Virus record (IMG/VR): IMGVR_UViG_3300027365_000030
Span: 1 to 40,209 of that record
Length of the DNA stretch: 40,209 bases
Source of the DNA: a virus
Direction: 5' to 3' (one strand)
Shown here: positions 3,496-36,531 of the stretch, piece by piece
Position numbering within the stretch: position 1 is the stretch's first letter
How the letters are laid out: each line of letters starts with the position of its first letter
The notes under the pieces: model-generated
What the model was told of the DNA's origin: nothing
The model's database searches: none
The model's input: the letters and a program-made list of their open reading frames with translations, nothing else
Position numbers and translations under genes: made by a program

Positions 3496-3573
3496 ATCTC
3501 GGTCGTAATAATTGGCTAATACGTCGGTCTCCAAAACCGTAAGATTGTGGTTCGAGTCCACACCGGGGTGCCA
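3496..3573 (+). tRNA. tRNA-Trp (anticodon CCA)
   Basis: I folded this by eye. The acceptor ATCTCGG (3496-3502) pairs with CCGGGGT (3563-3569) with two G-U pairs. A D-arm GTA/TAC encloses a loop containing TTGG. The anticodon stem TCGGT/ACCGT carries a terminal T-T mismatch and a CTCCAAA loop, so the anticodon is CCA (Trp, UGG). The T-arm is TGTGG-TTCGAGT-CCACA. CCA is encoded at 3571-3573. The total is 78 bases. It is the only tRNA I could fold in this window. Confidence 0.85.
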
Positions 3574-7670: not shown

Positions 7671-8849
7671 ATGGGACGTAAGAAAGGTTCCTCCATTGGT
7701 CCTAAAGTTGATCTAACGGGCAATGTTTACGGAAAACTAACAGTCACTGCATTTGCGGGAAAACAATACTACCCCTCAGGTGAATCGAAATACACTTGGA
7801 AATGTCAATGCGAGTGTGGTAATGAAATTGTAACCACAGGGAACGCTCTTAGAACTGGTAATACGTCCAGTTGTAGGCAGTGTATTTATATTGATATTAC
7901 AAATCAAAGGTTCGGAAAACTTGTTGCCATTGAACGACAAACTTACCGAGATGAAGCCGGTAAGGCTAAAGCCAAGTGGAAGTGCATATGTGATTGTGGT
8001 AATACGCACTATGTTAGCTATGGTAATCTTTTTCACAAGAATGTAGTCTCTTGCGGTTGCAGATTCTTTGAGATTCAAGAGCAAGATTTTGAGAGAAGAA
8101 AATCAGAACTCCTTGGACGGATTAGGGAGGTTCATGGAGATAGGTACCAATACAACCTTGACTCATTTGTGAATGTTAGTAGCAAAATAAAAATCTTCTG
8201 CGAAGAGCATGGAGAGTTTAGTCAAAGAGTCGCAGACCATGTGTTTGGTGGTACTGGTTGTAGGGAGTGCTTCTTCGATAGTCGCAGATTAGGTGTGGAT
8301 GGCTTTAAAGAAGCATCTACGAAAGTACACGGCACCAAGTATGACTACTCCCTAATTACCGAGTATTATAGAAATAGTGATATTGTTGAAATAATCTGCC
8401 CAGAGCACGGAAAGTTTTCACAATCAGCTCATAGTCATTTAGCTGGTTCGGGTTGCCCTTCTTGTAGTTCTGATCTTCGTCGTTGGGGCTATCGAAACTA
8501 TTGCATTAACAATGAAGAGTTTGGACAGGCGACAGGCAGCGTATATCTATTAGAGTTGACAAATAAAGAAGGGGACAGATTTCTTAAAGTTGGCGTTTCA
8601 AGATCAATAGGTAATAGGTTATCTGTCTATCGTAGGGATGGTCTTGAGCCAAAACTTCTGACGCTGATAGGGTCAATAACAGCCCTCAAAAGCGCAGAAA
8701 TTGAAATTAAAATTCTCCGAGACATTAAGAAAAAACAACTCCGTCATATCCCTCGGATTAAGTTTGCTGGCTGGACAGAATGTGCAAAGATAGAGGCTAA
8801 GGAATATCTTATCTCTGTTTTCGAGGAGGTGAGAAGAAGTGTCAGTTAA
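7671..8849 (+). CDS. Zinc-ribbon/DUF723-like mobile nuclease with GIY-YIG-like C-terminus
   Basis: The 392-aa protein is a probable homing endonuclease. Residues about 44-72 and 103-130 are two similar zinc modules (WKCQCECGN...CRQC and WKCICDCGN...SCGC). Residues about 145-265 hold two copies of a domain with the pattern VHGxxYxYxL...ICxEHGxFxQ...HxxGxGCxxC, which I know as DUF723 of phage mobile nucleases. Residues about 290-385 (SVYLLELTN, FLKVGVSRSIGNRL) resemble the T5orf172 branch of GIY-YIG nucleases. The gene ends 11 bases inside the terminase gene and carries that gene's ribosome site, a typical free-standing position beside a conserved target. The zinc modules also resemble those of the enzyme at 19490. 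The GIY-YIG assignment is moderately sure. Confidence 0.72.
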   Translation: MGRKKGSSIGPKVDLTGNVYGKLTVTAFAGKQYYPSGESKYTWKCQCECGNEIVTTGNALRTGNTSSCRQCIYIDITNQRFGKLVAIERQTYRDEAGKAKAKWKCICDCGNTHYVSYGNLFHKNVVSCGCRFFEIQEQDFERRKSELLGRIREVHGDRYQYNLDSFVNVSSKIKIFCEEHGEFSQRVADHVFGGTGCRECFFDSRRLGVDGFKEASTKVHGTKYDYSLITEYYRNSDIVEIICPEHGKFSQSAHSHLAGSGCPSCSSDLRRWGYRNYCINNEEFGQATGSVYLLELTNKEGDRFLKVGVSRSIGNRLSVYRRDGLEPKLLTLIGSITALKSAEIEIKILRDIKKKQLRHIPRIKFAGWTECAKIEAKEYLISVFEEVRRSVS

Positions 8850-10362: not shown

Positions 10363-11892
10363 ATGGCTGACGAACAAGATGCCTCCGTTGCGGAGAGTGT
10401 TGAAGATGTGCAGCTTGAACAAGGCTCTAATGAGATTCCAACGATAGCATATCGTGAACATGGCTTCAACGGCCTAACCACTTTAGGTGGACAGGTGTTC
10501 GAGGATTGCGCCCATGAGCTGCGCTGGCCTCAAGCCATAGAGACATACAAGAAAATGGCTAAGGATGCTGCTATCAGCCCTGCCCTTGAACTTGTTGAAA
10601 CCATGATTGCACGAGTACCTTGGGATGTCAAGATTCCTGAAGGATACGAGGAGGAATTGGCTGACAAAGCCAATTATCTCAAGCAAGTGATGGTGGACAT
10701 GGACCATGACTGGCAGAGCATGATTAAGCAGGCTGCTACGTTCAAACGTTATGGATTCTCCACTCTTGAGATTGTTCTTCGCTACCGCCGTAAAGAAAGT
10801 GGGTCGAAGTTTAACGATGGCCTTGTTGGCGTAAAGAAGCTTCCTATTCGTTCTCAAGACACCATCGAAGGTTGGTATTGGAAGAACTCTGGACGTGAGC
10901 TTGCAGGTCTTGTTCAACGTGTTTGTATTCCAGACAATGCTCAAGCTAGTGATGGATGGGATTTTGTTAACGCCAATTTGCAGAATGTAAAAGGCGGAAG
11001 CAAGAAGATCGCTCGTAAGAAATTTCTTCTGTTTCGAAACAACCCTCTGAAAGACAGTCCGGTGGGGACAAGTCCTCTTAACGGTTGTTGGCAAGCATGG
11101 AAGTATAAGACAGCATTCCAAGAAGCTGAGGCCATCGGAGCCGCTCAAGACGTGAATGGCTTTAAAGTGCTTTATTTGCCTCCGCAGTATATGGCATCTG
11201 ATGCTTCTGATGAAAACAAAGCTGTATTCCAAGCCTACCAACAAGCAATGGCTAATATGCACGTTGCTAAGCAATCAGGTTTGATTCTTCCTCTTCTTCT
11301 TGATGAGACAGGGAAGCGGATGTTTGACTTTGAAGTGATGAGTGTTACAGGACAACGTTCGTTTGACACTAACGCAATCATTGCTCGTTATAACGCTGAA
11401 ATCCTCACTTGTTTGTTTGCTGACTTCTTGGCCCTTGGTCAACAAGGTGGGGGATCGTTTGCTCTTGGTGAAACAAAAGTAAGCATTATCGAGATGGGTA
11501 TTCAAGCCGCTCTTGACGAAATCAAGAATCAGCTTAATCACCAACTTGTTCGTACACTTTGGGAGCAGAATGGTTGGGATACAACAATCATGCCAGAATT
11601 TGTTTACGGAAATGTGAGCAGAGAATCTCTGGATGAAGTGAGTAAGTTTATTCAACGTACTGCCGCTGTTTCTACATTCCCTCGTAATCGTGACACGATC
11701 AACTGGGTAATGAAGCAAGCTGACATCCCTTATCGTGTTCCAGACACTATGTCTCAAGAAGAGCTTGATGCTGCTCTTGGGAATATGACTTCTCGAAGTG
11801 GTGATGGGATGACAGAGGGACTTAGCTCGGGCACGGGTACAGTGGATGGCAGTTCTGGTGACGGATCAATTTCTAACAATGAAAACACATGA
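10363..11892 (+). CDS. Portal protein
   Basis: The 509-aa protein should form the dodecameric ring at one capsid vertex through which DNA passes. It is recognised by position between large terminase and head protease, by size, and by portal-like segments: DAAISPALELVETMIARVPWDVKI, the wing region FKRYGFSTLEIVLRYRR, and a long helical stem region near residues 370-400 (FDTNAIIARYNAEILTCLFADFLALGQQGGGSFALG), which is typical of Mu gp29/DUF935-like portals. The Ser/Gly-rich tail of about 30 residues is probably disordered. AGGAGG precedes the ATG. The exact portal subfamily is inferred. Confidence 0.88.
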   Translation: MADEQDASVAESVEDVQLEQGSNEIPTIAYREHGFNGLTTLGGQVFEDCAHELRWPQAIETYKKMAKDAAISPALELVETMIARVPWDVKIPEGYEEELADKANYLKQVMVDMDHDWQSMIKQAATFKRYGFSTLEIVLRYRRKESGSKFNDGLVGVKKLPIRSQDTIEGWYWKNSGRELAGLVQRVCIPDNAQASDGWDFVNANLQNVKGGSKKIARKKFLLFRNNPLKDSPVGTSPLNGCWQAWKYKTAFQEAEAIGAAQDVNGFKVLYLPPQYMASDASDENKAVFQAYQQAMANMHVAKQSGLILPLLLDETGKRMFDFEVMSVTGQRSFDTNAIIARYNAEILTCLFADFLALGQQGGGSFALGETKVSIIEMGIQAALDEIKNQLNHQLVRTLWEQNGWDTTIMPEFVYGNVSRESLDEVSKFIQRTAAVSTFPRNRDTINWVMKQADIPYRVPDTMSQEELDAALGNMTSRSGDGMTEGLSSGTGTVDGSSGDGSISNNENT

Positions 11893-17015: not shown

Positions 17016-17999
17016 ATGAGTGACCTCGATCAGATTATTCGTATCACGCTAACACGAGCTTCCCAGCCGGTTCAAACTGCTAGTTTCCAGATTCCATTGA
17101 TTCTAGCAACATTTACTAACTTTGCTGAGCGTACTCGTGTATACGAGAGCATGACTCAGGTGGCAGAAGACTTCGATAGCACTGATAGCGTTTATGTTAT
17201 TGCTTCCAAGCTCTTTGGTCAATCTGGCGTTGGTGCTGTTCCTCCGAGCATTGTTGTTGGTCGTCGTCAAGTTGACTCGATCACCGCAAGCATCGGAACT
17301 GTAGCAAATAACACAGAGTACAGTGTCACAATTAATGGCACCACTTACACCATCACTTCTGACGCTGATGCTTCTGCTCTTGAAATTGTAGCAGCCCTTG
17401 ATACTGCTGTCACTGATGTAGAGATTAATTTCACTGACAACCTTGATGGCACTTTCAGTGTAGCTCCGGTAACTCCGGGTGAAGGTTGGAGCTTCTCCGC
17501 TTCTTCCAATATCACTGTTGGTACTACCACTGCTACCGAAACTTGGGTAGAAGCTCTTGATGCTGTAACTGAAGACAACGACAGTTGGTATCTGCTTATT
17601 GCAGAGACTCACGTTGCTGCTGATCAAGAAGCACTGTCAGATGCTATTGGCGCTGTTCGTAAGATTTACGGTGTGTCTACTGCTGACGCCACTGCAACAG
17701 CTACCAGCACTACCGACATTGGTGCAATTCTTAGCGCTAAGTCTGCTGGTCGTACTTATGGTGTTTACCTCCCAACTGCTAACTCGGATTACCCGGAAGC
17801 TGCTTGGGCGGGTGCTCAACTTGCGTACACTCCCGGCTCGAACGACTGGGACTTCAAGCGTGTAAACGGAGTTACTGTTTCTAAGCTTAGCGCCACCGCT
17901 AAAAACAATCTTCGTGAGAAGAACTACAACTTCTACACTGAAGTTGGTGGTGTAAACATTTTCCAAGACGGTAACATGTTTGATGGTCTACCAATCGAT
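17016..17999 (+). CDS. Tail sheath protein, exon 1 (DUF3383-type)
   Basis: The first 328 codons of the contractile sheath; joined to exon 2 (19110-19415) they give 429 aa. The start is ATG 17016 after AAGAGGA. The N-terminus (IIRITLTRASQPVQTASFQIPLILA) and the segment GRTYGVYLP...YPEAAWAGAQLAYTPGSNDWDFKRVNGVTVSKLSATAKNNLREKNYNFYTEVGGVNIF are characteristic of the DUF3383 sheath family. A Thr/Ser-rich middle (residues about 95-185) is a surface domain. Unspliced, the frame would run past 17999 to a TGA at 18015 and lose the conserved C-terminus, so splicing is needed for a working sheath. The predicted junction is ...LPID / EQIVIDWLYARLQ. Confidence 0.9.
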
Positions 18000-19109
18000 T
18001 TGAAAAAAGTCGCCTGAGACCGGAAGGTCTCTTGAAAACTCCTTTAATTGCTGGAAACCCGCGAAGACGTATTGACTACAACGTAGAGCCTGTTCTAAAA
18101 TGATGGCTCAAGCGTGAAAGTTTGAAAACAATATGTTATGTGGCAATCAGCAGCCAAGCCCGAAAGGGAAGGTTCAACGACTAGGCAGTGATGCCGTAGC
18201 CTCAAGTGAGGCGAAATGGGGAGCCCCTAAGTATTGTTTATACCGGGTGAAGATATAGTCTGGTCTTACGCGAAAGCGTAAGTGGCGAAAAGGGAGAAAC
18301 AAATGAATTACGAAAAACTTTACTTTGCGTTTATTGAAAAATATAGGAATCAGCATTTCGAACAAGGTGAATATACCGAATCTCACCATATTGTTCCTCG
18401 CCATGCAGGAGGCGATGATTCCAAAGATAATCTAATTGTTCTGTCTTATCGACAACACTGTTTTGCTCACCGACTTTTATGGAAAGCTTATAAGAAAGCC
18501 TCAGATTACAAAGCTTGGATTTTAATGAGCAGGCAAGAGGTGGACAAAGTTATTGCTACACACAAAGCCTTGGGTAAAAGAAACGTTGAAACAGGACATT
18601 TAGCAAGAATAAGAAAGCTTGCTAATACTCCTTCAAGGCAAAAGAAGCTAGCAGAGCTGAACCACCACAAGGTTGAAACAGGACTTCTAGATGAGTACAG
18701 GCTGCTTTCTAATGCAGCATGGAGGGGTTGTTCACACACTGAAGAATTTAAAGAAAGAAAATCTCTTCAAATGAAAAAGTGGGCAACAGAAAACCAAGAA
18801 CACTATGCCTCGATGATTGAAAAGTCTGTGGCCTTGAAGAAAGAAAATTCAAAATCTCTCTCCGAGGAAGTAATTAAAAACGCGCAAAGAAATGAAGAGT
18901 ACCTGCACAAAACCTCTTCTAAAAGTTTAAATTTATTTGTATCACCCGAAGGTTTAGAGTTTCAAAGCCCGATATATGCTGCCAAATATTATTCAGAAGA
19001 TTTGGACTATTGGGTGGTAGAGAACTGGTGCAAACGGGCTCAACATGGTTGGTCTCGGAAGCCTAAACCTTAGCAGTGCGGGATTAACGACCCCGCATGA
19101 ACATAAACG
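18000..19109 (+). mobile_element. Group I intron in the tail sheath gene, with internal HNH gene
   Basis: The intron is a self-splicing ribozyme of about 1110 bases. P1 forms between exon CGAT (17996-17999) and GTCG (18009-18012), with the required U-G pair at the splice site after T17999. A perfect GAGACC-GGAA-GGTCTC hairpin (18016-18031) follows as P2. The core AATCAGCAGCCAAGCCCGAA...GGTTCAACGACTA (18145-18183) is a classic P4-P5-P6/P7 segment, with P7 GACTA (18179-18183) pairing TAGTC (18256-18260). P8 has GCCTC/GAGGC, and P9 is CTTACGC-GAAA-GCGTAAG (18265-18282). A terminal hairpin GCGGG/CCCGC follows the HNH gene. The last base G19109 fits the rule that group I introns end in G. Splicing restores a continuous frame. 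Confidence 0.92.
18303..19073 (+). CDS. Intron-encoded HNH homing endonuclease
   Basis: The product is 256 aa. ATG 18303 follows GGGAG (18291-18295); the in-frame ATG at 18282 lies in the P9 stem and has no ribosome site. The HNH core is at residues about 22-62: YTESHHIVPRHAGG, then NLIVLSYRQHCFAHRLLWKAY. The next 130 residues are helical and basic with repeats of a KLAxx..R..K type. The enzyme should cut intron-less sheath genes and spread the intron. It is related to the free-standing enzyme at 1840 (same MNYEK start and HNH spacing) but lacks the obvious NUMOD3 repeats. Its position after P9, outside the ribozyme core, is normal. Confidence 0.9.
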   Translation: MNYEKLYFAFIEKYRNQHFEQGEYTESHHIVPRHAGGDDSKDNLIVLSYRQHCFAHRLLWKAYKKASDYKAWILMSRQEVDKVIATHKALGKRNVETGHLARIRKLANTPSRQKKLAELNHHKVETGLLDEYRLLSNAAWRGCSHTEEFKERKSLQMKKWATENQEHYASMIEKSVALKKENSKSLSEEVIKNAQRNEEYLHKTSSKSLNLFVSPEGLEFQSPIYAAKYYSEDLDYWVVENWCKRAQHGWSRKPKP

Positions 19110-19415
19110 GAACAGATTGTCATCGACTGGCTGTATGCCCGCCTGCAAGAAAGCATTTATTTCCGTCTGATTAATAGCTTGAAGATTCCGATGACCAATC
19201 CTGGTCTGGCTATTATTGAGAATGAAATCCGTACCGTTCTTTCTCAGGCAGAAGCTAACGGCGCTATTGATCGTGGCTGGAGCGTCTCTGTCCCTGACGT
19301 ACTATCCATTCCAGAAAACCTTCGTGCTCAGCGTACTGCTGGCGTATTTGTCTTCCGTGCCCGGTTGGCAGGGAGTATCCGCCGCATTAACATCGAAGGC
19401 TATCTTTCGGTGTAA
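19110..19415 (+). CDS. Tail sheath protein, exon 2 (C-terminal part)
   Basis: The final 102 codons of the sheath gene, read in the frame set by exon 1 through GAA CAG ATT GTC. The product is EQIVIDWLYARLQESIYFRLINSLKI...GYLSV. The part DWLYARLQESIYFRL is the conserved start of the C-terminal domain of DUF3383 sheaths, and SIRRINIEGYLSV is the usual final strand that connects neighbouring subunits. An internal ATG at 19191 could in principle start a short product but has no ribosome site. The junction placement is predicted from P1 pairing and protein continuity. Confidence 0.88.
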   Translation, partial: EQIVIDWLYARLQESIYFRLINSLKIPMTNPGLAIIENEIRTVLSQAEANGAIDRGWSVSVPDVLSIPENLRAQRTAGVFVFRARLAGSIRRINIEGYLSV

Positions 19416-19433
19416 TTTAAGGACATTTACCTG

Positions 19434-19489: not shown

Positions 19490-20383
19490 GTGGCTAAAGA
19501 AATTGATGTGAAAATAGGTGATAAGTTCAACCGCTGGGAAGTGATCTCGGAAATATTCTATAAGACCTTCCCTAGCGGAGCTAAGGCTAAATTCATTAAC
19601 TGTCGATGCGAATGCGGAACCTGCTCCACACTACGACTGGGGACTTTAACTAGTCCAACCAAGCCCAGCCTTTCTTGTGGATGCGTCCGCAGGGAAGCGA
19701 TGGGTAAGACACGAAAGTTTCCCCAAATAGGTGAAGTTTTTGAAAAGTTGACAGTCATCTCGGAAGGCTACCGTAAGAATGTTAGGTCTTGGGTGACCGT
19801 CCAATGCTCTTGTGGCGGTGAAGCATTTGATGTAAGGGTGGACCATCTCCGGAACGGCAACACTGGTTCATGTGGATGTTTACAAAGAGAGGCGGTTAGC
19901 CAAGCCCATACAACTCACGGGATGAGTGGAACTTCTGCATATAACTCTTGGCAAGCTATGAAAGACCGCTGCAACAACCCAAACAACATCCGTTGGGACA
20001 GGTATGGAGGGCGTGGTATTGCGTATCCTACAGAGTGGGAGACTTTCCTAGGATTTTGGGAGGATATGTCTGAAGGTTGGTTTGAAGGTGCCGATATTGA
20101 CAGAATCAAGTTCGACGAGTCTTATTCAAAAGATAATTGTCGGTGGGTTAATAGAGATGTCGGCAATCACAACAAATCTAAATCTGAAGGGACATCTTCT
20201 TACAAGGGTGTTTATTACGACTCTGCAAGAGATAGATGGACGGCTCGGCTCAATAGAAATTTTGAGATTTTACTCCAGAAAAGATTTTACACCGAATTCG
20301 AGGCGGCTCTTGCTTATGACAACATGTCAGAGGAAGTTTATGGAGATCGTCCAAATCAAACAAACCGGGATGATCCCGCATGA
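19490..20383 (+). CDS. HNH homing endonuclease with zinc ribbons and AP2 domain
   Basis: The start is GTG 19490, after AAGGAG (19479-19484), with an ATG-less N-terminus MAKEIDVKIGDKFNRW; the product is 297 aa. Residues about 42-66 and 105-132 are two zinc modules (CRCECG...SCGC and CSCGG...SCGC) similar to those in the enzyme at 7671. Residues about 150-225 carry the AP2-linked HNH nuclease region (YNSWQAMKDRCNNPNN, YGGRGI, DRIKFDESYSKDNCRWV). The C-terminal 60 residues form an AP2 DNA-binding domain (SSYKGVYYDSARDRWTARL, FEAALAYDNMSEEVYG). It separates sheath from tube, genes that are normally adjacent, so it is an inserted free-standing mobile gene. Confidence 0.87.
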   Translation: MAKEIDVKIGDKFNRWEVISEIFYKTFPSGAKAKFINCRCECGTCSTLRLGTLTSPTKPSLSCGCVRREAMGKTRKFPQIGEVFEKLTVISEGYRKNVRSWVTVQCSCGGEAFDVRVDHLRNGNTGSCGCLQREAVSQAHTTHGMSGTSAYNSWQAMKDRCNNPNNIRWDRYGGRGIAYPTEWETFLGFWEDMSEGWFEGADIDRIKFDESYSKDNCRWVNRDVGNHNKSKSEGTSSYKGVYYDSARDRWTARLNRNFEILLQKRFYTEFEAALAYDNMSEEVYGDRPNQTNRDDPA

Positions 20384-20396
20384 AAAGGTAACCTAA

Positions 20397-20918
20397 ATGG
20401 CTGATATTGTTATCGGTAACTACTCGCCTGAGTCTGTTACCATTGTTATTTCTAAAGGAAGTTTTGTTCACCAAGTGACGGGTTTTGCCGAAGGTACTTT
20501 CATCTCAGCAACTCGCCTAGTAGCCGCATCAGATCCGTATATCGGCTCAGATATTACTGGCGGTCGTGTCAAGCGTCGTAACCGCTCTATGAACGTCACC
20601 ATTAGCTTGCACCAGTATGCTGCTTCCAATACGGTTTTGCAACAGTTGCAACGGGCCGATGAAGAGGCGGATGGCAACGAATGGGTCTTCTCTTGTCAAA
20701 TCAAAGATAATAGCGGACAAACACTGTTCTTCTCGAATCAAACCATTATTGCTACTACCCCAGACCTGACTCTGAGCAGCACTACTGAGATGCGAGACTG
20801 GACATTCTTCATGTTCAACGCAGACAATTTCATTGGCGGCAATACCCCGATGGATGACGCTGCTGTTGCTGCTGTTGAAGCTGTTGGTGGTCAAGTAGAC
20901 GCTCGCTGGCGTCTGTAA
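20397..20918 (+). CDS. Major tail tube protein, probable (DUF3277-like)
   Basis: The 173-aa protein is first of three tandem relatives (with 20973 and 21482). Shared elements are YSPESVTIVI at the start, GxAEGTFISATR, KRRNRSMNVTISLHQ, IKDNSGQTLFFS and the closing DWTFFMFNADNFIGGN. This is how inner tail-tube proteins of DUF3277-type myoviruses read. It is the best candidate for the main tube subunit because it lies next to the sheath, has the strongest codon bias of the three, and is followed by a clear terminator (20924). The final DARWRL differs from its relatives. Confidence 0.8.
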   Translation: MADIVIGNYSPESVTIVISKGSFVHQVTGFAEGTFISATRLVAASDPYIGSDITGGRVKRRNRSMNVTISLHQYAASNTVLQQLQRADEEADGNEWVFSCQIKDNSGQTLFFSNQTIIATTPDLTLSSTTEMRDWTFFMFNADNFIGGNTPMDDAAVAAVEAVGGQVDARWRL

Positions 20919-33300: not shown

Positions 33301-33481
33301 AGTGCATACAACGCCAGATAGTCTTCTTGTTGATCCTTGTGTAGCTAAAGAAGCTGGATGGTCTGTAAGGAGTTTATCAAAAGCCTATATTACCAACACC
33401 ATGTGTATAGGAAAGTATAGGCTTTTATTAGATAAACAGAGAAAATACAAAGACCAGATTCTAAACCTATATCAAAAATAG
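33203..33481 (+). CDS. Rz1-like outer-membrane spanin lipoprotein
   Basis: The 92-aa product starts within the Rz-like gene in the +1 relative frame. The signal peptide and lipobox are MRWTLTLLCLMSLWSC with Cys21, so it is processed by signal peptidase II and lipid-anchored in the outer membrane. About 40 residues after the lipobox the protein has an extended C-terminus, VRSLSKAYITNTMCIGKYRLLLDKQRKYKDQILNLYQK. It is longer than lambda Rz1. The same extension occurs a second time, diverged, at 34193-34318 beyond the inserted HNH gene. Its end overlaps the end of that HNH gene by ten bases, in convergent orientation. Confidence 0.87.
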   Translation: MKHSLMRWTLTLLCLMSLWSCSTKPIETQYRDRVHTTPDSLLVDPCVAKEAGWSVRSLSKAYITNTMCIGKYRLLLDKQRKYKDQILNLYQK

Positions 33482-34140
33482 AATCTAACAGTCTCTACAC
33501 GCTGTTGTAAGTCTTTTTCTATATTTGCTGCCACAGATAGTAAGTTTTCTGCTATCTTAATGTTAAAAGTTTGGCTCACAGATGGTTCAAACTCCCACCA
33601 CAATACATACTCACGAATAACTTCTACTTTTGCTAGTTGCCATGCGGCGTGTGCCTCCATTGCGGTAGCATACATACCCAAGTGTTTACGCGGCCCGCGT
33701 AAGGTTTGAACGGCTGCCCTGAAGGGTTTCTTAAGAAAATTTACCATGTCTTTCGAAATCTTGTCTTTAGACACACCAATTGGATATTCACCGCGAGCAG
33801 CCCCGCATGTCCCAAAGATACAGTTTATAGCATTTGGAACAAATGCGCAAGTCTGAGGACTATATTGAGTATTGTCTGGGTATAACAAGTCTTTATCCAA
33901 ACGCATACCTTGCCAGCGTTGGAGTTCCATCCAAGCTTTGAAGTTTGAGAATGTCAGCCATTCTTCACAAACTGTACAGTTTGAGTAGGTTGGTTGCTTT
34001 TGCTTAACCCTAGGACTGTAACACCTAGCAAGCATGTCAACCCAAGTGCGGTAAAATGGGCAGGTTTCTCTTTTACCGTTTACTAGGGGGTTTACTGGAT
34101 ATGCTGCATCATTCTTGCCCACATTTCGAACAAATTTCAT
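33472..34140 (-). CDS. HNH-family homing endonuclease inserted in the lysis region
   Basis: The 222-aa minus-strand product has AAGGAG before its ATG at 34140. It has the pattern CPFYRTWVDMLARCYS...PTYSNCTVCEEWLTFSNFKAWME...LDKDLLYPDNTQYSPQTCAFV, common to a family of free-standing phage HNH/AP2-associated nucleases. A basic C-terminal DNA-binding part with AHAAWQLAKVEVIREY follows. The enzyme at 35157-35780 is a close family member with the same blocks. It points against all neighbouring genes, has its own promoter (34197-34168), and is bracketed by two copies of the Rz1 C-terminus, so it is a recent insertion. Confidence 0.85.
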   Translation of the reverse strand: MKFVRNVGKNDAAYPVNPLVNGKRETCPFYRTWVDMLARCYSPRVKQKQPTYSNCTVCEEWLTFSNFKAWMELQRWQGMRLDKDLLYPDNTQYSPQTCAFVPNAINCIFGTCGAARGEYPIGVSKDKISKDMVNFLKKPFRAAVQTLRGPRKHLGMYATAMEAHAAWQLAKVEVIREYVLWWEFEPSVSQTFNIKIAENLLSVAANIEKDLQQRVETVRFYF

Positions 34141-35156: not shown

Positions 35157-35780
35157 TCACTCTTCAATCACATAGTTTTCGTAGCGTTCAATCAAAGCTT
35201 TAGCAACACGAGGGTCAGATTGTTCAGCAGCAAGAATTTTAGCTTGTTCAAGTTTAAAAGCAAGCCATGCTTTGTGAGCTTCGAGTTCTGTGTCGAAGAG
35301 TCCGAGATGTTTCTGCTTTCCTGATCCATCGCCACACAGCGCCTGAAATTTATTAACCCCTCTATGCCAGCAGACACCAATCATCAATCGCCCACGAGAA
35401 GCATTTCTTTCAGTTACGAACAAATTAACCTTCTTGTCCACAAAGACACAGGCACGGGGGCTGTATACTTCGTTACCTTGTAGCAACAGGTCTTTATCTA
35501 ATTGTTTTCCTTCCCAATCTTGCTTTTCCATCCAATGTTTAAAGTTTGAAAAGACAAGCCAGTCTTTACAGACAGAGCAGCCAATGTAGGTTGGATACTT
35601 TTCTTGCCACTTAGCGGAGTAGCACCGCCGAAGCATGTCTCTCCATTTACAGTAGAATGGACAAATCCACACAAGTTTCCGCTTTTGTTCACCGTTTTCA
35701 TAGTTGATCGTTTCACACTTTTCCACAGCATAATCTGCATCATTTATTCCAACACCATAGAGTAATTTCTTTTTCTTCAC
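35157..35780 (-). CDS. HNH-family homing endonuclease (relative of 33472)
   Basis: The 207-aa product starts at GTG 35780, six bases after AGGAGGT on the minus strand (the ribosome site within the 29-bp repeat). A longer frame reaching 35867 would overlap the upstream gene and lacks a site. The order of blocks matches the enzyme at 33472-34140: GVGINDADYAV, CPFYCKWRDMLRRCYS, PTYIGCSVCKDWLVFSNFKHWMEK, LDKDLLLQGNEVYSPRACVFV, then a C-terminal DNA-binding part (KQKHLGLFDTELEAHKAWLAFKLEQA) that recalls AP2-type tails. It lies last in the minus-strand block, directly after the GIY-YIG fusion gene. Confidence 0.85.
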   Translation of the reverse strand: MKKKKLLYGVGINDADYAVEKCETINYENGEQKRKLVWICPFYCKWRDMLRRCYSAKWQEKYPTYIGCSVCKDWLVFSNFKHWMEKQDWEGKQLDKDLLLQGNEVYSPRACVFVDKKVNLFVTERNASRGRLMIGVCWHRGVNKFQALCGDGSGKQKHLGLFDTELEAHKAWLAFKLEQAKILAAEQSDPRVAKALIERYENYVIEE

Positions 35781-35785
35781 AACAC

Positions 35786-35814
35786 ACCTCCTAAAATGGT
35801 AATCCTTCTTCGTC
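35786..35814 (-). repeat. 29-bp exact repeat, right copy (inverted partner at 1062-1090)
   Basis: Read on the minus strand it encodes DEEGLPF, the stop codon TAG of the GIY-YIG fusion gene and the AGGAGGT ribosome site of the next gene. It is identical to 1062-1090 on the plus strand, about 34.7 kb away. Confidence 0.9.
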
Positions 35815-36531
35815 ATTCCCTTGGTGGGGCCGAGGAGCCAAGGATTGAGATAGGATGCGAGTCCCAAACTCCTCTACAATACCGTGTTTATCCAAAACAC
35901 CAAATTGCAACTCTTCCATAATTCTATAAGTGTTGTACCTTTCGTTGAAAGTATTTTTGCTCTTAATCTCAAGGTAGCCACACTGCTTCAGAACTTGAAA
36001 GAGAGAGTGTACAGATTTCCTCACCGTAGCACAAGCCTTGGCTATATCTTCTTGTTTATCAAAATATTCCTCACCTCTTTCCTTGAAAAACTTGTAACGA
36101 TTTATAAAATATAACAACACCACCTTATTTGTATGGCTTATGCTGACGTAACTGCCATCCTTCAAGTTCTTTACGTGAGTCGCACGTATTACTGAATAAT
36201 AGCAAGGGAAGTGGGTGTCAACTTCCCGGTCATGCGGTACAGGCGCGTCGCCCACTATGAGAGACTTCACTTTCTCTTGTTTATGAAATCTGGCACTATA
36301 TCCACCACCTCTCGTGATATTATCTAAACTCAGACTTTGATCGGAGATACACTCCTTCTCCACCCTGTTTGCTTCTTCTACGTCCCAAGTCTCGTAGAAG
36401 ATATTCATGGTAATATCTTCGCCATAGTTTCTCTTATGATGACGAAGCCGCATCTCTGGGTTTTTAGTCAAGCCGATATAGAACACCTCTTTGTTTTCGA
36501 CTAACTGGTAAACATAGATAATTTTCTTCAC
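35791..36531 (-). CDS. GIY-YIG nuclease fused to winged-helix domain with SSB-like tail
   Basis: The 246-aa product starts at GTG 36531, after GAGGAAA. Residues 1-80 form a GIY-YIG nuclease domain: IIYVYQLVENKEVFYIGLTKNPEMRLRHHK carries the two Tyr motifs and the Arg helix, EANRVEKECI the Glu, and DNITRGGG the closing Asn. Residues about 105-190 align with the winged-helix protein at 588-1085 (FPCYYSVIRATHVKNLKDGS; NKVVLLYF..FF; FDKQEDIAKACATVRKSVHS; GYLEIKS). The protein ends GNDEEGLPF, the same SSB-like tip. So it appears to be a homing nuclease that has captured a replication/regulatory DNA-binding domain, or the reverse. The function of the fusion is unknown to me. Confidence 0.8.
   Translation of the reverse strand: MKKIIYVYQLVENKEVFYIGLTKNPEMRLRHHKRNYGEDITMNIFYETWDVEEANRVEKECISDQSLSLDNITRGGGYSARFHKQEKVKSLIVGDAPVPHDREVDTHFPCYYSVIRATHVKNLKDGSYVSISHTNKVVLLYFINRYKFFKERGEEYFDKQEDIAKACATVRKSVHSLFQVLKQCGYLEIKSKNTFNERYNTYRIMEELQFGVLDKHGIVEEFGTRILSQSLAPRPHQGNDEEGLPF

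Follow-up and report, generated by a model that had tools for sequence, protein, structure and literature searches.

The stretch of DNA analysed here, referred to below as the window, is the whole 40,209-nt IMG/VR record IMGVR_UViG_3300027365_000030, a metagenomic virus record with no isolate. Its tail sheath gene is found in two parts. The sheath open reading frame at 17016-18017 encodes 333 aa and ends at a TGA (18015-18017), the sixth codon after T17999. The conserved sheath C-terminus (EQIVIDWLYARLQESIYF...) resumes at 19110, about 1.1 kb on, where it again matches PHROG 205; an earlier note on this DNA had described both the stop and the displaced C-terminus. When 17016-17999 and 19110-19415 are joined, they form a single 429-aa frame reading ...GLPID/EQIVIDWLYARLQ..., and the predicted ligated exons would read ...CCAATCGAT/GAACAGATT.... 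The features of the locus are as follows.

17016-17999, plus strand: tail sheath exon 1, codons 1-328, ending ...GLPID (PHROG 205 tail sheath, 1.9e-68; Pfam DUF3383, 9e-20)
17996-18012, plus strand: P1, CGAUUU (17996-18001) with AAGUCG (18007-18012), U17999-G18009 at the 5' splice site (pairing in the lineages)
18000-19109, plus strand: intron assigned to group I, 1110 nt, phase 0, between codons 328 and 329, starting after T17999 and ending at G19109 (Rfam RF00028; abutting exons in phage M1; six other lineages)
18015-18017, plus strand: in-frame TGA ending unspliced exon-1 translation ahead of the ribozyme core
18016-18031, plus strand: P2 hairpin, 18016-18021 with 18026-18031 (four of six pairs double-changed among four lineages)
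18039-18223, plus strand: P3, 18039-18044 with 18218-18223 (three compensatory pairs in lineage L212)
18049-18173, plus strand: P4, 18049-18054 with 18147-18152; P5, 18059-18062 with 18140-18143; P6, 18153-18155 with 18171-18173 (lineage alignment)
18179-18260, plus strand: P7, 18179-18183 with 18256-18260 (GACUA/UAGUC); P7.1, 18184-18187 with 18192-18195; P7.2, 18199-18203 with 18208-18212 (pairing in seven lineages)
18225-18247, plus strand: P8 hairpin of lineage-specific sequence (read by eye in each lineage)
18265-18282, plus strand: P9 hairpin with a GAAA loop (Rfam match, lineage alignment)
18303-19073, plus strand: intron-encoded HNH homing endonuclease, 256 aa (Pfam HNH, PHROG 655)
19076-19098, plus strand: P9.2-like hairpin at the 3' end of the intron, 19076-19082 with 19092-19098 (28 of 28 cells paired in four lineages)
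19110-19415, plus strand: tail sheath exon 2, codons 329-429 and stop (PHROG 205, 1.6e-22)

The gene is identified as the sheath by family matches in both halves (Pfam DUF3383 and PHROG 205) and by its position between a tail terminator gene upstream (Pfam PF23961) and tube genes downstream. The tube-like gene at 20397-20918 lies past an inserted endonuclease gene and aligns with the first tail-tube-annotated gene of Pseudomonas phage vB_PsaM_M1 (OP714164.2, hereafter M1), the best GenBank relative, in which the gene order is the same and the corresponding gene is annotated 'tail sheath protein'. The M1 sheath is uninterrupted: the match to exon 1 (52% identity) ends at 53362 of OP714164.2 and the match of exon 2 to its C-terminus (58% identity) starts at 53363, in line with the in-frame join after G19109 that had been proposed. 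The 'conserved site' of that proposal is also borne out, since I327 and D328 are invariant and P326 nearly so across 15 sheath proteins down to 45% identity.

We applied a covariance-model search, one of the checks that the earlier note had suggested, to the 40 kb (cmscan, Rfam 15). It returned a full-length match to RF00028 (Intron_gpI) over 17992-18282 at 79.9 bits (E 7.1e-19), the gathering score being 50, and a permissive search of the window detected no second group I intron there. The 299-nt core folds with a z-score of -3.8 against 200 shuffles. The P4-P6 segment, the GACTA/TAGTC P7 and the GAAA-capped P9 are present as described, with covariation in P3-P9, and the 5' splice site after T17999 with its U-G pair likewise stands, the four-base core of P1 being CGAU (17996-17999) with GUCG (18009-18012). 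By its sequence, 18000-19109 is a group I intron in the tail sheath gene, and its anatomy, exact ends and in-frame join can be read directly from the DNA.

The same codon boundary was then examined in relatives. Two sheath-protein searches of IMG/VR, one giving 43 contigs and the other represented by the best 80 of 136, together list 85 distinct contigs, nine of which carry an insertion at the identical codon boundary and 76 of which do not. The nine comprise four near-copies of the window together with L007, L008, L029, L113 (=L148) and L212. One contig, 3300033997_000074, breaks off within the intron and, with L009 recognised as the missing half, was added to the count by hand; a tenth case, L130, stays outside the rate of nine in 85 because it was found via the 3' splice junction of the intron. 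With the window clade counted once, this makes seven lineages, four of them with an HNH gene (window clade, L007, L008 and L130) and three with bare introns of 332 nt (L029), 347 nt (L113) and 333 nt (L212). A group I match to Rfam was confirmed for the intron of each further lineage, and in L007, L008, L029, L113, L130 and L212 too the intron ends in G and the exons join in frame. As judged from these contigs, the sheath codon boundary is found empty, with a bare intron or with an HNH-bearing intron, and the recurrence at a single site is shown by the sequences themselves. In GenBank, 1114 records have a sheath match; the top 60 and a set of 60 spaced evenly through the list all show the sheath uninterrupted, and none of 53 records with a similar ribozyme, three of them inspected singly, has a sheath annotation under the ribozyme match. 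The absence of an isolate behind the window might raise the suspicion of a defective intron or an assembly artefact, but the same 1110-nt intron recurs in contigs from separate metagenomes (whole in three, split in two halves in a fourth) and the diverged relatives keep all counted helices, which makes this reading negligible in practice.

Alignment of the introns revealed extensive covariation. Among four lineages and 63 pairs, 97.6% of 249 cells hold standard pairs and 15 pairs are double-changed, compared with 32-42% paired in a slid-partner control; in all seven lineages, across the 51 pairs of P3-P9, 340 of 347 cells (98.0%) are paired and 17 pairs are double-changed, P3 and P7.1 contributing three each, against 35-42% in the slid controls. 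P7.1 and P7.2 covary, and four of the seven pairs of the P9.2-like hairpin are double-changed among four lineages. P7 is paired in all seven lineages and never varies; being invariant, P4 and P7 are uninformative by covariation. P8 was omitted from the pair counts because its columns misalign in the MAFFT alignment, and P1 and P2, which misalign in L130 and L212, were omitted from the seven-row count and counted on four rows. P1 nevertheless forms in all seven lineages, and in L130 it is compensatory across the exon/intron boundary (GGAU/GUCC vs CGAU/GUCG elsewhere). Furthermore, U occupies exon position -1 in 7/7 intron lineages vs 38/76 of the intron-less contigs listed (p 0.014), and the exon tetramer fully matches P1 in 7/7 lineages whereas CGAT occurs in 11/76 of the intron-less contigs listed (p 8e-6), both p values being a rough guide because the contigs are related.

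The reading frames point in the same direction. Unspliced, the exon-1 frame meets a stop at the sixth intron codon in six lineages and at the first in L130; early in-frame stops are a feature of many group I introns according to the available text of PMC3984707. An intein was considered and ruled out, since in each of the seven lineages this stop lies no more than six codons past exon 1. In the exon-2 frame, a stop stands two codons ahead of the splice site and the earliest start available is the TTG that forms codon 23 of that exon; separate translation of exon 2 is therefore unlikely, and a start of its own would come too late to include the conserved DWLYARLQ stretch. These frames bear on a gene in pieces, in which the HNH insertion would stay unspliced and two sheath polypeptides would assemble, as in NrdA of Aeromonas phage Aeh1. 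An unspliced, HNH-bearing split gene yielding two chains does exist (PMC7344957, in the part available), but besides the exon-2 frame, the complete ribozyme core with its compensatory changes and the retention of the intron without an HNH gene in three lineages argue against this reading and leave the gene in pieces very improbable.

The HNH gene does lie inside the intron, as claimed, with its ORF placed between P9 and P9.2, outside the ribozyme core, and with its own ribosome-binding site (AGGGAG) upstream. Its product matches Pfam HNH at 24.2 bits (cut-off 21.4) and PHROG 655 homing endonuclease at 1.6e-26. The homologues of other lineages are 35-62% identical to it; H28, H29, N43 and H52 are invariant in four homologues, and the ORFs are intact in four lineages with changes mostly at third positions. 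In GenBank it is best matched by homing endonucleases, MobE-like ones among them, at about 28-35% identity; no close solved or characterised relative was identified, the best PDB match having E 0.001. We note that the first part of another window ORF, 1840-2790, aligns with the intron HNH protein, and that this ORF and those at 7671-8849, 33472-34140 and 35157-35867 make four more endonuclease-like ORFs, with motifs recognised by eye except for 1840-2790.

From these data we infer splicing in infected cells, nuclease activity and homing, along the following lines. In the late transcript, CGAU at the exon end and GUCG in the intron would form P1, free guanosine would attack after U17999, and exon 1 would then attack after G19109, joining codon 328 to 329 to give the 429-aa sheath. 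Until splicing, the TGA at 18015 would bar ribosomes from the core, and the HNH protein would be made from its own start within the intron. In co-infection this protein would most likely cut or nick intron-less sheath alleles near the site, and repair would copy the intron in. Taken as a whole, a spliced group I intron that restores the 429-aa sheath, with HNH-driven homing most likely, is the best explanation of the locus, and we hold it with high confidence; the sheath-gene intron is genuine, is very probably functional and is probably mobile.

The main competitor on mobility is an intron that is competent to splice but immobile, its HNH gene a relic, inherited with the sheath gene and occasionally lost. 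In its favour, the HNH gene was lost or never present in the three bare introns; against it, the HNH ORFs are intact in the other four lineages and the catalytic residues are kept in those aligned. Trees speak to the same question. The large sheath tree holds 82 sequences, what is left of 85 once three identical ones were taken out; three others without enough of exon 2 were also dropped before it was built, and counts of tree labels are unhelpful, as near-copies dominate them. Intron-bearing and intron-less sheaths are sisters in L212/L211, L007 (=L153)/L200, L008 (=L205)/M1, L113 (=L148)/L165 and the window clade/L044 (=L202), which is a plain presence/absence contrast between neighbours in the tree. 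In the seven-lineage set, the intron and sheath trees share the groups L029+L113, L130+L212 and L008+L130+L212, and the lone conflict concerns L007, resting on 64/69 support in the sheath tree. A recent transfer between distant phages, our first reading of the patchy distribution, was dropped because the two trees agree except for this one weak branch. Their agreement fits mainly within-lineage inheritance, a point that the immobile intron shares, and the sequences suggest an old resident intron with repeated local loss or (re)gain inside lineages.

Co-conversion would leave a local drop in identity around the site; such direct traces of homing are sparse, and the sister pairs give a mixed picture. 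L212 and L211, whose sheaths are about 94% identical in DNA and which differ in the intron, are most divergent beside it: 205/240 positions are identical within 120 nt of the site vs 1250/1327 elsewhere (85% vs 94%, a post hoc comparison), and this argues against immobility. The dip is clear in this one of four pairs, which in turn suits an immobile intron; of the others, window/L044 shows it weakly, L153/L200 lacks it and L148/L165 has the reverse. On balance we regard immobility as rather unlikely and prefer a mobile intron. Between the window and L044, the sheath gene is unusually diverged, mostly 68-88% identical in 50-nt bins, with some near 98%, and the flanks up- and downstream are about 93-94% identical (blastn); exchange of gene and intron as one unit would account for this pattern, but so would ordinary recombination. 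The intron-less L044 sheath (L044:1434-2156), a near relative, is without about 56 residues (84-141) in mid exon 1, and the L048 sheath has a similar gap. More broadly, and tentatively, the codon boundary may be an intron niche that predates sheath divergence to about 40% identity, with the intron repeatedly lost and regained and the HNH gene lost within lineages, while the neighbouring tube gene, the portal gene and the space between sheath and tube may belong to a wider hotspot of competing intron-borne and free-standing endonucleases that possibly mobilise HNH-less introns in trans; we offer this as a possible reading and would not be surprised to see it fail.

Group I introns are common in terminase genes. 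The td, nrdB and nrdD introns of T4, with I-TevI, I-TevII and I-TevIII, are mobile group I introns of a lytic myovirus; unlike the sheath intron, they lie in nucleotide-metabolism genes, mostly with GIY-YIG enzymes and with the ORF inside a core loop. The closest ribozyme in a GenBank phage (70% identity over 75% of the query) belongs to the RNA polymerase beta introns of the Serratia phage 2050HW type, which, as here, have an endonuclease gene nearby but interrupt an RNA polymerase subunit gene. In Pectobacterium phage CB7, too, introns contain HNH genes; one such intron is in terL, and splicing in vivo is known for several. The hosts there are terL, RNR, DNA polymerase and NAMPT genes, and the available text gives the sheath as one ORF (PMC7344957). 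Also close in kind are the Cluster J mycobacteriophages, in which capsid and a tail gene are spliced: group I introns occupy highly expressed virion genes (capsid in LittleE, a tail gene in BAKA and Optimus), with U at the exon end and G at the intron end and, as here, one intron with and one without an endonuclease gene (PMC3706429, as far as its text is available). These phages are siphoviruses with capsid and minor tail genes as hosts and a LAGLIDADG-like ORF on the opposite strand; their splicing was demonstrated by RT-PCR, and recurrence at a single site in many lineages, as found here, is not described in the available part of that paper (PMC3706429), which also cites a capsid-gene intron in Tuc2009.

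The view that the sheath is a notable host gene stands in part. The earlier note made introns in virion structural genes seem rarer than they are (PMC3706429, available text), but literature searches on sheath, structural, capsid/tail and tube introns, mostly outside subscription papers, turned up no published group I intron in a sheath gene, and the sheath seems to be unreported as a host. With the contractile sheath, whose expression ranks among the highest of late phage proteins, the list of genes that tolerate a self-splicing intron would grow by one, and late in infection the intron would have to be removed with high efficiency. A single site in three states, in close and distant phages, offers a comparative system for the persistence of group I introns. 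In such genomes, gene callers can be expected to cut the sheath short and to list its C-terminus as a separate stray fragment.

Finally, mobile endonuclease genes also occupy the gap between the sheath and tube genes. This gap holds a GIY-YIG-type gene in L003 and L004 and a different endonuclease in L005, spans about 18 nt in L044, and is at least 500 nt in 34 of the 74 listed intron-less loci with a located tube gene. In the window, the space is taken by a free-standing HNH gene (19490-20383) whose 297-aa product matches AP2 weakly; this gene is missing at that place in the near-identical L003-L005, which carry other endonuclease genes. In L003 (5125-5396) and L004 the tail tube gene is also interrupted by an ORF-less group I intron (Rfam 68.8 bits), whose predicted splicing after T5130 and G5396 in L003 would restore ...ASEPYIGSDITGG, and the GIY-YIG-type gene directly upstream is a possible trans-acting partner. 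A further group I intron (76.4 bits) lies on the minus strand of L130 at 10898-11198, apparently in the portal gene, the frame upstream of it resembling the window portal protein up to LFADVL. The window also carries a single tRNA gene at 3500-3565 (Rfam 30.9 bits).
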